Below are positions 3,407 through 26,715 of a stretch of 29,203 nt of DNA, in pieces (position 1 is the stretch's first letter; each line of letters begins with the position of its first letter). The position numbers and the translations under genes were made by a program. The notes under the pieces are model-generated. The model saw only the letters and a program-made list of their open reading frames with translations. It did not search any database and had not been told where the DNA came from. Source of the DNA: a virus; the IMG/VR virus record IMGVR_UViG_3300009160_000128, positions 1 to 29,203 of that record, one strand, 5' to 3'.

Positions 3407-4126
3407 TTACACAAATACTTTGTCCCATGTTGTTGTTAGGACATCATCTACCATTTCACTTATTACTATCTCCTCATTTCTAAGGTGTTCTGGCCTAGCA
3501 CCACAAGTAACTTCTTCATTTGTTTTAAAAGACAAAATAGTCTTATTTCCTTTTCTGTACATATAACCAATTGCATCAGCTTGTGCACAGATAAGAGATT
3601 TAATTTTACCAGTTAAGTCAATGTTTGCTGACATAACCATTTCACCTTTATCATCTACCTGCTTGTCCTTAATGTGACCAGATAAAATAATGTGGGGCGC
3701 TAAGGTATCAATAAAATCTAAAACTTGAAAGAAAGCTTGACGGATATATAAATATCCTGCACCATTTGCAAGAGTGATAACACTAGTGCCATCAAAATTC
3801 TTACCCATTGGTGTTTGTCTATAAAGCTTAATTGCTAAAGGCATAATCATTTCCTCTAATGCTGTTACTGTATCTATAGTAACAAATTTATAAGGACATC
3901 CTGCTTCTTTAATAGCTTTACCAGTGTCAAGTAATTCCTGTAGATTATTAATTTTTACTTTCAGAGCTTCTACATAATCAGTTCCGTTTTCTAAATCTAA
4001 TATTAGATTATTTTCAAGACCAGCATACGCTGTGGTTTTACCAGTCTTTGGTTTAGAATAGATAACTATTCTCTTGGGATTTACACGTCCTCCCTTTACT
4101 TTGTTTGTTGGCAGTATTATACTCAT
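3407..4126 (-). CDS. Sak4-like RecA-family ATPase (AAA_24)
   Basis: 239 residues. Walker A is YSKPKTGKTT (about residues 23-32). A conserved acidic strand NLILDLENGTDY follows, then Walker B as FVTIDTVTALEEM (about residues 103-115) and the downstream HIILSGHIKDKQ strand. This is the single-domain RecA-like Sak4/AAA_24 annealing or recombination ATPase typical of crAss-like and other phages. It works with an SSB, here probably the next gene, on strand annealing and repair. It overlaps the upstream gene by 4 nt. Confidence 0.88.
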   Translation of the reverse strand: MSIILPTNKVKGGRVNPKRIVIYSKPKTGKTTAYAGLENNLILDLENGTDYVEALKVKINNLQELLDTGKAIKEAGCPYKFVTIDTVTALEEMIMPLAIKLYRQTPMGKNFDGTSVITLANGAGYLYIRQAFFQVLDFIDTLAPHIILSGHIKDKQVDDKGEMVMSANIDLTGKIKSLICAQADAIGYMYRKGNKTILSFKTNEEVTCGARPEHLRNEEIVISEMVDDVLTTTWDKVFV

Positions 4127-11781: not shown

Positions 11782-11944
11782 TAATAAATCCTACTGCTAC
11801 AATAATATTCATACCTAGGGACATTAGTACCTCATGTATATCTTGATAGACATTCACACTAAGATGCACATGACCTACCATCCAAAATGGTATGGACAAG
11901 TTTTGACTTATCCATACCAATGTGTATTTTAAAAAGTGTTTCAC
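11750..11944 (-). CDS. small membrane protein, GTG start
   Basis: 64 residues starting at GTG 11944-11942, three bases after the stop of the 34-residue gene. Hydrophobic N-terminal and C-terminal segments (VWISQNLSIPFWMVG; LGMNIIVAVGFIIDY). Function unknown. Confidence 0.5.
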   Translation of the reverse strand: MKHFLKYTLVWISQNLSIPFWMVGHVHLSVNVYQDIHEVLMSLGMNIIVAVGFIIDYKQTRHER

Positions 11945-17446: not shown

Positions 17447-17530
17447 AGTATAAGTTTTAAGTAAATAAATAAAATAAACAGACTATCTTGCCTTTTATCT
17501 GTTCAATACGGTCATGGGCAAACGCAACTG

Positions 17531-17604
17531 TGATTCCGCTTGGATTCAAACCAAGGACCTATGCCTTAGAAGGGCAGTGCTCTATTCAACTGAGCTACAG
17601 AACC
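17531..17604 (-). tRNA. tRNA-Arg (anticodon TCT)
   Basis: A 74-nt cloverleaf on the minus strand. The acceptor GGTTCTG pairs with CGGAATC (two G-U type pairs allowed). The D stem is GCTC/GAGC. The anticodon stem has four good pairs with a C-U mismatch at its base, and the loop is CTTCTAA (anticodon TCT). The T arm is CTTGG-TTTGAAT-CCAAG. The discriminator base is A, and CCA is not encoded. It reads AGA, a codon this AT-rich genome uses heavily, so codon supply is the simplest role. Confidence 0.92.
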
Positions 17605-18551: not shown

Positions 18552-19508
18552 TTAATATACTCTGCTTGCTTTTCTTTTAATTTTCAAAGTATCTGGAGTA
18601 TTTTGACCGTAGATACTATTACTACAAGTCAAGATAGATTTGATATGCAAATCAAGGACTGTATTATAGTCATCTTTGCGGTAACCTCCAAACAATGCAA
18701 GAACTACCGGCAACTTTCTCCCTAAAAGGTGAGACATACGGTTTACCCAATCAGCAAATTTCTCAGCACACATAATCCAATACTCTGTACCATTCTGACC
18801 ATGTAGATCATCATCTTCATGTGAATCTGCACCATGTGCAAATACAACATAATCAACTTCACCATTAAGTACTTTTGTACCTAACTTATCAAGTGATTCT
18901 ATAAAGGAAGATACATATTGAGAATTAGCACCATCAGGGTTAATGTTACACCCAATAGGGATTGCTTTATTCAATAGAGGATTAAACTTTCTTGTGTCTT
19001 CAATACTGTTACCAAAATGACCGTCAAGGTCAAGATAAGCACAAACTTTACCTGTTTCTTGATAGATTTTAATAGCAGATACTACTTGACCTGAGAAAGT
19101 ACAGAATCCACTACCACGTTCAGGTTGTGCATGATGCATTCCTGATATTGGAGCAAGACATATAGTTTCAGGATGTTCAATAGCATACTTACTAGCAGCA
19201 TACAATGAACCTGTAGTATATGGTAAACTATCTACTAAGTTTTGAGACCAAGGTATAGAATTACTTCTGCAATTACCTGTTCCGGTATATACATTCTCAA
19301 CATATTCTTTTGTGTGAGCAATGTAAAAGTCTTCTTTCTTGATAGGTTCAAAAGAACCATCAATGTCTAACAAGTTACTATAACCTGTTTCTTGAAACCT
19401 GTTCATTAATAAATGAGGTTTCAATGGAGATTGAGAGTATGAACTCTCACGGATACTGTCAAAGCATACTTGCTTGTCAGTATAAAATGTTTTGATTTTT
19501 GAATTCAT
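18552..19508 (-). CDS. HDAC-superfamily deacetylase (acetylpolyamine amidohydrolase/AcuC-like)
   Basis: 318 residues, close to the 300-340 usual for bacterial class II-like HDACs. Motifs in order: GMHHAQPERGSGFCTF (H125/H126 charge-relay pair and GFCxF), YLDLDGHFGN (D162 and H164 zinc ligands), FAHGADSHEDD (D228, third zinc ligand) and FGGY (Y276, transition-state Tyr). All catalytic residues are present, so it should be an active Zn-dependent deacetylase. Natural substrates could be acetyl-lysine on host proteins, acetylpolyamines or a small metabolite. It follows the 1.3-kb non-coding region with no terminator between them, so it may share that transcript. Confidence 0.88.
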   Translation of the reverse strand: MNSKIKTFYTDKQVCFDSIRESSYSQSPLKPHLLMNRFQETGYSNLLDIDGSFEPIKKEDFYIAHTKEYVENVYTGTGNCRSNSIPWSQNLVDSLPYTTGSLYAASKYAIEHPETICLAPISGMHHAQPERGSGFCTFSGQVVSAIKIYQETGKVCAYLDLDGHFGNSIEDTRKFNPLLNKAIPIGCNINPDGANSQYVSSFIESLDKLGTKVLNGEVDYVVFAHGADSHEDDDLHGQNGTEYWIMCAEKFADWVNRMSHLLGRKLPVVLALFGGYRKDDYNTVLDLHIKSILTCSNSIYGQNTPDTLKIKRKASRVY

Positions 19509-19540
19509 GTCTTGAATAATTTAAGTGAATAATCAGATAT

Positions 19541-19643
19541 CCCTCTGCACTCAGTTGTAACATAGAGTTTGTTCCATTTCTGGCTCTTAAGCTTGTTAGC
19601 CTTACATTACAACTGTCTACCCTTGGGAAGTAGAAATGGTGCA
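19541..19643 (-). ncRNA. three-way-junction domain, copy A (3' end of the RNA)
   Basis: Outer stem TGCAC (19546-19550) with GTGCA (19639-19643). A 9-bp stem CAGTTGTAA (19552-19560) with TTACAACTG (19607-19615) encloses a further hairpin arm with GGCT/AGCC. A 5-bp hairpin TCTAC (19616-19620) / GTAGA (19630-19634) has a nine-base loop. On the RNA the loop is TTCCCAAGG, and its TCCC could pair with the GAGGGA that follows the outer stem. Confidence 0.75.
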
Positions 19644-20566
19644 TTACTATTTGAAAGGCTGAGTATTTGACCTTTCATGTTGTTATCATTAAGAGTTTCC
19701 TCTATGTATACACACTTGTATTTCTACAAGTAAACAACATGCTCAATGATTTATAGTATCATCATACTTGTCCATATTAGTGCCATAAGTTTCTTTTCAT
19801 ACCAACTTCCTTGCGAGATTCACAGGTTGCACCCTGCTAGTTAAGATATTAATCAGTCCCTTTACATAAACCTTGCGGGTCTTCTGTATCTACATATTGC
19901 AGTAGAATAAGAGCATTTTCACTAATAAGTGTCCGAACATTTTTTGCGTCATAAATTTTTAAGTTTAGATGCGGTTCAGGAGAATGAAAGAAGTAGTTCA
20001 AACTTTATGTAACATGCTACCTTTTGAGTAGTTTAGTTACAACTTCCTTCTGCTTTAAGCTGCCAAGCTTACTTACTGTTTGATGTAAATACACACTATT
20101 TCTAGTAGCATACGGAACATCTCACTAATAACAACTTCCATCTTGGCAAGATGTACTATTGTTATCTATTGCACTTTCTATTGGCATTTCTGCCTCAACT
20201 TCCTACCTGTTAGAAAGTCTACATCTCTATGCATCAACCGTTAGGCCACTAGCACACCAAAATGTAGGTAGTTACAATACTCTTCAGTAGACAGGATTAC
20301 TCCTGCGCAATATGTTACCAACATATCACTTTATACCATTGCTGGTTTATCCTATGGTCACGAGAGCTGACCTATTGTTTCAGTAGTTCCACAAGGAAAC
20401 TTAACGCACACACCATGAGCATCTAAACTCTGAGGGTAACAATATTGTGTACTTAAATCAGGACTCTTACCTGCAAATCCCTACATAGTCAATAGGAATG
20501 GCTTTCTCATACTAAACTGACTTGCAAATCAGAATAGAATGATAAAATTATAATCTTTAAGGTTGT

Positions 20567-20689
20567 CCCTCTGTACTTAGTTGTTATTGGCTGTACTCAA
20601 GACCAATATTCATCACATCCTCTATTAATTTAGAAGGAGACGCTCTGTGTGATTACAACTACCTGACCTTGGGAATCAGGAATGGTACA
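20567..20689 (-). ncRNA. three-way-junction domain, copy B (5' end of the RNA)
   Basis: Outer stem TGTAC (20572-20576) with GTACA (20685-20689). Stem TAGTTGT (20578-20584) with ACAACTA (20655-20661). Hairpin CCTGA (20662-20666) / TCAGG (20676-20680) with the same nine-base loop as copy A. The linkers are identical in length to copy A, and the AATG linker and GAGGGA flank are identical in sequence. Inside the middle arm are further stems ATTGG/CCAAT and ATCACA/TGTGAT. Confidence 0.75.
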
Positions 20690-20813
20690 TTACGACTTTG
20701 CTTGACATCAACAACCCCCTCAAGCTAGTGAATCACTACTTGTATGTAAACTGTATAGAGTGCAAAGGTTAAAAACTCCCCCTCAGTTATTTACAGCTGA
20801 TGTACTAAATGTA

Positions 20814-21122
20814 TTAATTTCTTGGTGGAAGTGCTTCTACTTCCTTCATCAGTCTAGTTACATCATCCGGAGTTAGATGTCCTTCAACATCATTAGTAAC
20901 CGGAGTATCATATACTAACTCTGAATACTCATCTTCAGGAGCCATATATAATACAGCAAGTTCATATAGTCCTTCTCTACCTCCATGTGAATAAGGACCA
21001 CGGATTACTGATACACCATAATGGTTATCAAAAAAATGATGAGCATGTTCTGCTGGATCCATCCACTGCAAAACTGCTTGTTCTTCATCATCTTTTTCAA
21101 ATACTAAATCTTCAAATGTCAT
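20814..21122 (-). CDS. conserved phage protein of unknown function (VIRGPYSHGG type)
   Basis: 102 acidic residues. The block YGVSVIRGPYSHGGREGLYELAVL split around residues 35-58, then YDTPVTNDVEGHLTPDDV, matches a small protein family common in phages of quite different hosts, including actinobacteriophages. Function unknown. The 110-bp leader upstream (21123-21232) holds short stems (CCATG/CATGG and CCGT/ACGG) but no gene. Confidence 0.75.
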   Translation of the reverse strand: MTFEDLVFEKDDEEQAVLQWMDPAEHAHHFFDNHYGVSVIRGPYSHGGREGLYELAVLYMAPEDEYSELVYDTPVTNDVEGHLTPDDVTRLMKEVEALPPRN

Positions 21123-25465: not shown

Positions 25466-26044
25466 ATGAAAAATTTAATCTTAACACTATTACTAACAGC
25501 ATCCAGTTTAGCATATACCCAAACTCAGGCTGTTTACATTTATAAAGGTAAGTTTGCATTATGTGCTGCATCATCAGCTGAACCTACAGGTAATCTAATC
25601 ACAGTTCAAGGAAGAACATTTATTGAAGGATGTGCCGTATGTCCAGTATTAGATGGTCCATCTATTGGTAATAGATTCTTGGTTCCTGATCCTACAGTAT
25701 CTCCGGATGGAACAGATAGTACAGTATGGTCTTTCTTCTGGTACTCAGATTCACTTCCACAAGCACCAACCTGGGAAACTCTACCTACAGTAAATAGATC
25801 ATTTGTTGTTTCCGATACAATAGGTGGTGGAATGAGCAACATGTTCTGTATGCCATGTAAAGTTTGGAAAGAAGTTAACGGAGTAACATTAGTTAAATGT
25901 TATGGTCCACTTAATGAAGCTGCCGTACCTTTGAGAAGAGCATTAAGAGTTCATAAAGGACAGACCTCTATTACACAAGCACCAGTTGGAGCATTTTATC
26001 CAGTGGGAACAATTATCCCAGTAATAGATTCTGGAATTAAATGA
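25466..26044 (+). CDS. secreted Cys-containing protein
   Basis: 192 residues. The first 22 (MKNLILTLLLTASSLAYTQT...) form a type I signal peptide: basic start, hydrophobic core and a small-residue end, with cleavage probably near QTQA. The mature part is beta-rich with cysteines in LCAA, GCAVCPV, FCMPCKVW and KCYG, an even spread that would suit disulfides in the periplasm. No named domain. An exported protein driven by two promoter-like boxes suggests a task in the host envelope, such as superinfection control. Its stop overlaps the next ATG. Confidence 0.7.
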   Translation: MKNLILTLLLTASSLAYTQTQAVYIYKGKFALCAASSAEPTGNLITVQGRTFIEGCAVCPVLDGPSIGNRFLVPDPTVSPDGTDSTVWSFFWYSDSLPQAPTWETLPTVNRSFVVSDTIGGGMSNMFCMPCKVWKEVNGVTLVKCYGPLNEAAVPLRRALRVHKGQTSITQAPVGAFYPVGTIIPVIDSGIK

Positions 26045-26715
26045 AAATATTCTTTGATCATATCTCTGGATTTGGTAAAGTTAGTAATCTTGAGGTCATA
26101 GTCAACTGTGCCTATGGAATACTTGAGTCTAATGAATCTTCTGTAGATGCATTAAAGGAAGGATGGATTCCCTGGGAAGGCAAGTGGTATAATGAGCGCA
26201 GTACCCGGATAGACTTAGCATTATATAAACCAACTAAGACTACTAAGAAGTTATCCAAAAAAATTATAGCACAATCTGGAAATGTCTTGGCTGATCTAGA
26301 ACAGTATGAAGAGCTACATGAAAAGTATTGTAAGTACCATAACTTTAAAAGAGATATCAAACTAGAATCATTTAAGGATTGTTCTGTTATAGAGTATCAT
26401 ACAGATAAGCTGATAGGGATAAGTTTGTATAAACAATATGATACCCAGTTTGTGGCATATCAATTTATCTGGGATTATGCAGATCCAAAATTATCTTTAG
26501 GCTCAGTAGCTCAAATGATAGAATGTGAAACAGCTAAACTATTAGGTTGCGAGTATGTATATTTACTTGGTGGATATGAAGACTGTTGCAAATATAAATC
26601 TAACTATCCAGGGTTTGAATTCTGGACAGGTAAAGAATGGTCAACTGATATTAAGTTATATACTACCTTAGTAGCTAGAGATGAAAGAATAAAAATTGAG
26701 AACTATGATCTATGA
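26041..26715 (+). CDS. ATE/Bpt-like aminoacyl-tRNA-protein transferase
   Basis: 224 residues, near the 230-250 of bacterial Bpt. The N-terminal domain keeps the order CAYG (C23; CPY in Bpt), a helix ending ALKEGW, a RIDLALYKPTKTTKKLSKK strand-helix (VPLRVxxFxPSRSQRR in Bpt) and the second domain YQFIWDYADPKLSLGS, EYVYLLGGYEDCCKYKSNYP and GFEFW (YxDPxxxxSLG and YxYLGYYIxxCxKMxYKxxFxP in the family). These enzymes move Arg or Leu from charged tRNA to protein N-termini, making N-degrons. The CxxC part of the N-terminal metal or cluster site is missing (NERST at that place), so activity or substrate may have changed. Confidence 0.78.
   Translation: MKIFFDHISGFGKVSNLEVIVNCAYGILESNESSVDALKEGWIPWEGKWYNERSTRIDLALYKPTKTTKKLSKKIIAQSGNVLADLEQYEELHEKYCKYHNFKRDIKLESFKDCSVIEYHTDKLIGISLYKQYDTQFVAYQFIWDYADPKLSLGSVAQMIECETAKLLGCEYVYLLGGYEDCCKYKSNYPGFEFWTGKEWSTDIKLYTTLVARDERIKIENYDL

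Follow-up and report, generated by a model that had tools for sequence, protein, structure and literature searches.

A divergent phage GOLLD RNA flanked by putative twister-like ribozymes

GOLLD RNAs have a conserved 3' domain and a separate, less conserved 5' domain, exceed 800 nt in many members, and assemble as a class into a 14-mer RNA cage, as in the env-38 structure (PMC12286853). The abundant non-coding RNA of ICP1 (~800 nt) was compared with GOLLD and ROOL by its authors (PMC7567579); it is a large phage RNA like the one described here, the likeness is by description only, and ribozyme flanks are not reported for it. A precedent for phage ribozymes that mature a neighbouring structured RNA is given by the HDV-like theta ribozymes, which adjoin phage tRNAs (PMC10879173); however, these have another fold and process tRNAs, whereas the neighbour in the present case is GOLLD. 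Twister ribozymes are described by a U/A-A step in L1, a short P2 followed by a dinucleotide whose partners are two nucleotides beside L4 (T2), an L4-L1 pairing (T1), and a P5 that may be absent (PMC5408937); P5 is present in 1% of annotated twisters (PMC6154101). Our literature search found no paper linking GOLLD with twister ribozymes.

A GOLLD RNA between two phage genes

The window, that is, the whole stretch of DNA analysed, is an unplaced, tailed-phage-like viral contig of 29,203 bases. About 1.3 kb separates its deacetylase gene from the gene of a 102-aa phage protein (Table 1), and the preliminary description had seen no convincing gene there. This held: no ORF of at least 60 aa overlaps positions 19509-20813, and the longest reading frame has 55 aa. 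The same description had proposed a GOLLD- or ROOL-type RNA on the minus strand, or else a new class of giant RNA, to be checked with Rfam covariance models. The GOLLD model matched over its full length when Rfam was run in the permissive E-value mode, so the class is a known one; the ROOL model was unmatched, and at E <0.5 Rfam gave nothing besides GOLLD.

Table 1 Features of the GOLLD locus and its neighbours in the window.
Feature	Coordinates	Strand	Basis and remarks
tRNA-Arg (UCU)	17530..17604	-	ARAGORN and Rfam; ~1.9 kb from the RNA
Histone-deacetylase-fold protein	18552..19508	-	Pfam PF00850 (Hist_deacetyl), E 3.4e-23; 31 nt downstream of the 3' ribozyme
3' twister-like ribozyme (putative)	19540..19646	-	Alignment and covariation; R1 90.6 bits, in training set; predicted cut U19646/A19645
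GOLLD conserved 3' domain	19656..20050	-	Rfam RF02032 model positions 1-416; cmscan 91.6 bits, E 3.6e-24, full model
GOLLD 5' domain (variable half)	20051..20456	-	From about 20456 on, shared by six related contigs; compensatory pairs
Leader, 5' ribozyme to GOLLD core	20457..20565	-	blastn extents; conserved in some relatives only
5' twister-like ribozyme (putative)	20566..20692	-	Model R1 67.2 bits, E 3.8e-15; repeat; predicted cut U20692/A20691
RNA expected after both cuts (inferred)	19646..20691	-	1,046 nt; 5'-OH and 2',3'-cyclic phosphate ends; from predicted cleavage sites
Small phage protein, phrog_4074, function not known	20814..21122	-	PHROGs E 1.4e-16; upstream of the RNA

The scores of the window and of all its relatives lie below the curated Rfam cut-off for GOLLD (150 bits), and in curated mode only the tRNA-Arg was reported for the window; this cut-off governs automatic inclusion in searches and does not describe the biology of GOLLD. 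Despite the sub-cut-off scores, the E-values of the matches leave chance no room. Related contigs were found through neighbouring proteins or the flanking motif. Seven, the window included, contained GOLLD, with 83-103 bits in the relatives (102.6 in L173/L262, 100.8 in both L038/L254 and L153/L263, 85.5 in L215/L264, 84.0 in L040/L255, and 83.0 in L039/L256). The homologous core extends from about 20456 to 19647 in six contigs (~810 nt, a length in keeping with GOLLD; PMC12286853). When the six cores were aligned, RNAalifold predicted 243 pairs, of which 18 were changed on both sides in a compensated manner and were spread over both halves. Both things that had been proposed as a check in related phages, homologous intergenic regions and covariation, are thereby present.

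The stretch of 1.2 kb almost certainly encodes a member of GOLLD. It shares with the class the full conserved 3' domain, the ~810-nt core with a variable 5' half, the phage location, and a tRNA in the region, but differs in its score below the cut-off, in a tRNA that lies about 2 kb away instead of abutting, and in its ribozyme-like flanks. In a blastn comparison, the 5' half showed no significant similarity to canonical GOLLD 5' halves; an AUAAACC-hairpin-GGUAUAAAGUG element common to both was recognized by eye and is a lead only.

Other signs cited at the outset were weaker. The G+C content of the stretch (0.35-0.38) exceeds that of the deacetylase side (~0.28-0.36), as had been stated, but some later genes are equally rich. 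For the reported density of stems, folding of positions 19530-20529 gave z -2.7 (0/20 shuffles as good), but tiles of 200 nt from other parts of the window did equally well against their shuffles. Folding energy was dropped as evidence because it does not set the stretch apart; the case stands on homology together with covariation. The tRNA-Arg announced about 2 kb away was located, and, in agreement with the earlier reading, no terminator-like site was found on the minus strand in the interval between the RNA and the deacetylase gene. Elsewhere in the window, positions 26041-26715 of the plus strand encode a protein whose match is to the C-terminal domain of arginyl-tRNA-protein transferases (ATE_C, E 1e-7).

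A twister-like family at both ends

The duplicated RNA domain that had been recognized at the ends of the stretch was recovered, its copies having the same order and strand (19540-19558/19606-19652 and 20566-20584/20652-20698, 79-89% identical), and the proposed limits of 19535-20710, approximately right, were refined to about 19537-20696 from ribozyme to ribozyme. Along the minus strand, each copy has the order U-AA-UGYA-CC-(linker)-P4-UUCCCAAGG-P4'-P5...P5'-AG-UGYA'-GAGGG. When only the 5' half served as a pattern, at least 120 stretches matched in viral contigs; the full 3' half was present in at least 97 distinct copies from uncultured phages, and the remaining stretches were mostly chance matches. 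No copy was found in named phages, and a scan of genome contigs gave, among the matches listed, chance matches only, without the 3' half. Model R1 was built from 24 aligned natural copies, with the 5' copy of the window left out and the 3' copy included.

The copies covary extensively. P4 was paired in 95-97 of the 97 copies listed, each position showing as many as four Watson-Crick types, and P2 showed C-G in 76 and U-A in 19 of the copies listed. T1 changed from CCC/GGG to CAC/GUG in the lineage of L039, L040 and L215. In an alignment of 24 copies, pseudoknots included, 93.9% of the cells were paired compared with 79.4% after shuffling, and the covariation score was 0.428 compared with 0.159 (0/500 shuffles); in slid registers, 30-47% were paired. 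P5 was between 10 and about 180 nt long. Some P5 inserts turn up with the same sequence in several copies, even across different 5' frames (L104, L140, L173 and L206; L102, L141 and L147; L417 and the 5' copy of the window), which suggests modular exchange.

Every element of the published twister description is present in the flanking domain in the same order. With the type P1 twister (RF03160), the family shares U/AA and GAGGG in L1, a 4-bp P2, P4 with a CCCAAG loop, T1, and the P1 register; it differs in having T2 as CC/GG instead of GC/GC, a long P5, a weak P1, no P3, and no UAAA in L2, and in going undetected by Rfam, whose twister models left the copies of the window unmatched even at E 10. 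Parts of this agreement follow from the search. The L1 U, found in 95/95 copies listed, was fixed by the pattern, and the L1 AA and GAGGG and the L4 CCCAAG, invariant in the 24 aligned copies, were partly so; T1 and T2 are likewise nearly invariant within the family and partly pattern-fixed. The CC/GG of T2, invariant and occupying the position of the classical GC/GC, is argued from that position only, and its first C might belong to P2 instead, as a fifth pair. The P1 register was not built into the search: the bases that immediately precede the U and those that immediately follow GAGGG formed at least three pairs in 38/95 copies listed, compared with 10.6 +/- 2.9 after shuffling (0/2000), and slid registers showed no excess. 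P1 is weak in the two copies of the window itself.

A search with the classical T2 (GC/GC) yielded one RNA in two contigs, L247 and L249. The identical bases of this 56-nt RNA (3519-3574) were matched by the Rfam twister-P1 model (32.9 bits, E 9e-4) and by the family model (28.4 bits, E 6e-6); the bridge is only partly independent, since the RNA was found with a pattern derived from the 5' half of the family. Pistol, HDV-like and hammerhead ribozymes were rejected as identities on the basis of topology and the lack of Rfam matches.

Taken on architecture and covariation, the flanking domains are very likely twister-like ribozymes. The family appears to be a large twister-like variant that escapes Rfam rather than an Rfam twister, and it was the flanking domains that pointed to it. 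That the bounding domains are self-cleaving is probable, and would fit the processing that the preliminary description had guessed at. At L162:838-2301, a further copy precedes the gene of a DUF2828/DUF7788 protein (E 1e-50) that has a DVSGSM motif of von Willebrand type and resembles Ro60/TROVE proteins.

Spacing after GOLLD and the proposed release

The predicted cut of the 3' element falls 10 nt after the end of the GOLLD model in the window and in L262, L263 and L256, and 12 nt after it in L255; by blastn, the element occupies the same position after GOLLD in 7/7 contigs. A survey of GOLLD 3' ends with two patterns gave chance or coding matches only in viral contigs, so seven representatives from annotated phages were used for comparison. 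A tRNA starts 8-10 nt after the GOLLD end in four of these seven (Acinetobacter phage Herod, 9 nt; LR756502, 9 nt; Streptococcus Javan636, 10 nt; Javan565, 8 nt). The huge phage LR745206 (635 kb) has a tRNA-like sequence 10 nt after a strong GOLLD match of 287 bits (L386:2128-2225), DSS3_MAL1 a tmRNA 57-83 nt past the end, and the GOLLD of a Mycobacterium phage is followed by neither a tRNA nor a tmRNA. The tRNA-like sequence of LR745206 has an apparent D-arm insertion, and ARAGORN makes no call there.

From GOLLD identity, ribozyme architecture, covariation and spacing, all of them computed, we infer cleavage, release and cage assembly as follows. The divergent GOLLD RNA on the minus strand would be co-transcribed with its neighbours, and a twister-type ribozyme at each end would cut just 5' of itself at U/AA. 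The 3' ribozyme would fix the GOLLD 3' end at 10 nt beyond the last stem and stay behind as the leader of the deacetylase mRNA, while the 5' ribozyme would free the other end and remain attached to that RNA. Both cuts would yield an RNA of ~1,046 nt that can fold and probably assemble into a cage of the GOLLD type. Elsewhere among phages, this 3' end would be set by the tRNA starting 8-10 nt downstream, and the ribozyme would take over the role of RNase P/tRNA punctuation at the same spacing; such a replacement is the simplest reading. As an explanation of the whole locus, a divergent GOLLD freed by flanking twister-variant ribozymes is the best available, and we hold it with good confidence; release by the ribozymes, taken as a step of its own, is likely.

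The ribozyme placed about 10 nt past the last stem by phages without an adjacent tRNA suggests that a defined GOLLD 3' end matters at this point. With the predicted cuts, cage studies would also gain exact ends that can be tested and a construct that processes itself.

Competing explanations and variant elements

The copies could be selfish or mobile RNA elements scattered between phage genes, beside GOLLD by accident. Their number would fit, as would the recurrence of P5 inserts in different frames and the fact that copies among the matches listed are mostly without GOLLD in the same record and adjoin diverse genes. Yet all seven GOLLD contigs keep one at the same place, about 10-12 nt past the end, and the downstream gene is co-oriented in 84/88 cases among the matches listed, which makes this reading rather improbable. 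The seven contigs form one clade, so the association may go back to a single event. A family widespread between co-oriented genes without GOLLD is probably a general RNA-processing element of phages. We consider the chances evenly balanced for the broader proposal, in which a cage-forming RNA is freed by a ribozyme pair replacing tRNA/RNase P and a large undetected twister subclass (T2 CC/GG, P5-extended) serves as general punctuation in uncultured phages.

The domains may instead be structured elements that do not cleave, such as protein-binding or stabilising leaders or decayed ribozymes, with GOLLD released by host nucleases. The lack of an Rfam twister match and the large variable P5 inserts speak for this, and so do sister elements that share the 3' half. 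A 3'-anchored scan gave 111 distinct 3' halves, 74 with the canonical 5' half and about 6 nearly so. About 17/111 (class B) have the same P5 and 3' half behind a 5' half of UUAAUCAG-CUCCCAAGG without a UGCA partner; in about 6/111 (class C), which read CCC-(UU/AA)-UGCAC, GAGGG pairs locally with the CCC just 5' of UGCAC, so there is no T1 pseudoknot. Class B includes L401, L403, L405, L411, L412, L413, L416, L417, L421 and L138:8451, in which UCAG could pair with CUGA; class C comprises L398 (two copies), L415, L422, L430, L393 and L428. Both classes are unable to form the same core and may be decayed or alternative forms, and since elements with the 3' half exist without the twister 5' half, the frame may have another role. 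Against non-cleaving domains, nearly all class A copies keep the twister-conserved U, A, A, CCCAAG and GAGGG and the P1 register, and their distance from GOLLD is the one at which tRNAs stand in other phages; we judge non-cleaving domains unlikely.

The ribozyme pair could also serve to circularize the GOLLD RNA. Cleavage by twister leaves 5'-OH and cyclic-phosphate ends, which are substrates of RtcB-type ligation, as in twister-based engineered circles, and two copies on the same strand surround one unit. No ligase was identified, however, the P1 strands match poorly when those of the two copies are joined, and both copies occur in only 3/7 contigs, so that circularization seems very improbable. 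The 5' copy is present in the window, L038 and L153 and lacking in L039, L040 and L215, L173 being a truncated contig; with the 5' side covered in six contigs, half of these do not carry the copy, so release at this end would not be general. Decayed coding sequence or an ordinary untranslated region, favoured by nothing beyond the missing annotation, is already refuted by the GOLLD match, the compensatory changes and the lack of a long frame, and its probability is negligible.

Three further observations concern RNAs in other contigs. The region L096:4880-5320 (Prevotella phage Lak-A1, MK250015 region) matches the GOLLD of the window by blastn (E 1e-10); the Lak megaphages carry the GOLLD signatures AAAAGCAAAAGU, CGCAAGG, AAGGAAGUUGGUAUGAAA and CUCAGCC, Rfam reports no GOLLD there, and the region is possibly a divergent GOLLD. 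L152 contains a tRNA with the anticodon CUA (11829-11903), called tRNA-Pyl by ARAGORN and possibly a phage suppressor tRNA. A Pistol ribozyme (RF02679), which has an unrelated fold and is absent from the window, scored 42.1 bits, above the cut-off, at L040:2531-2595, after a short ORF and ~400 nt downstream of GOLLD and its twister-like element.
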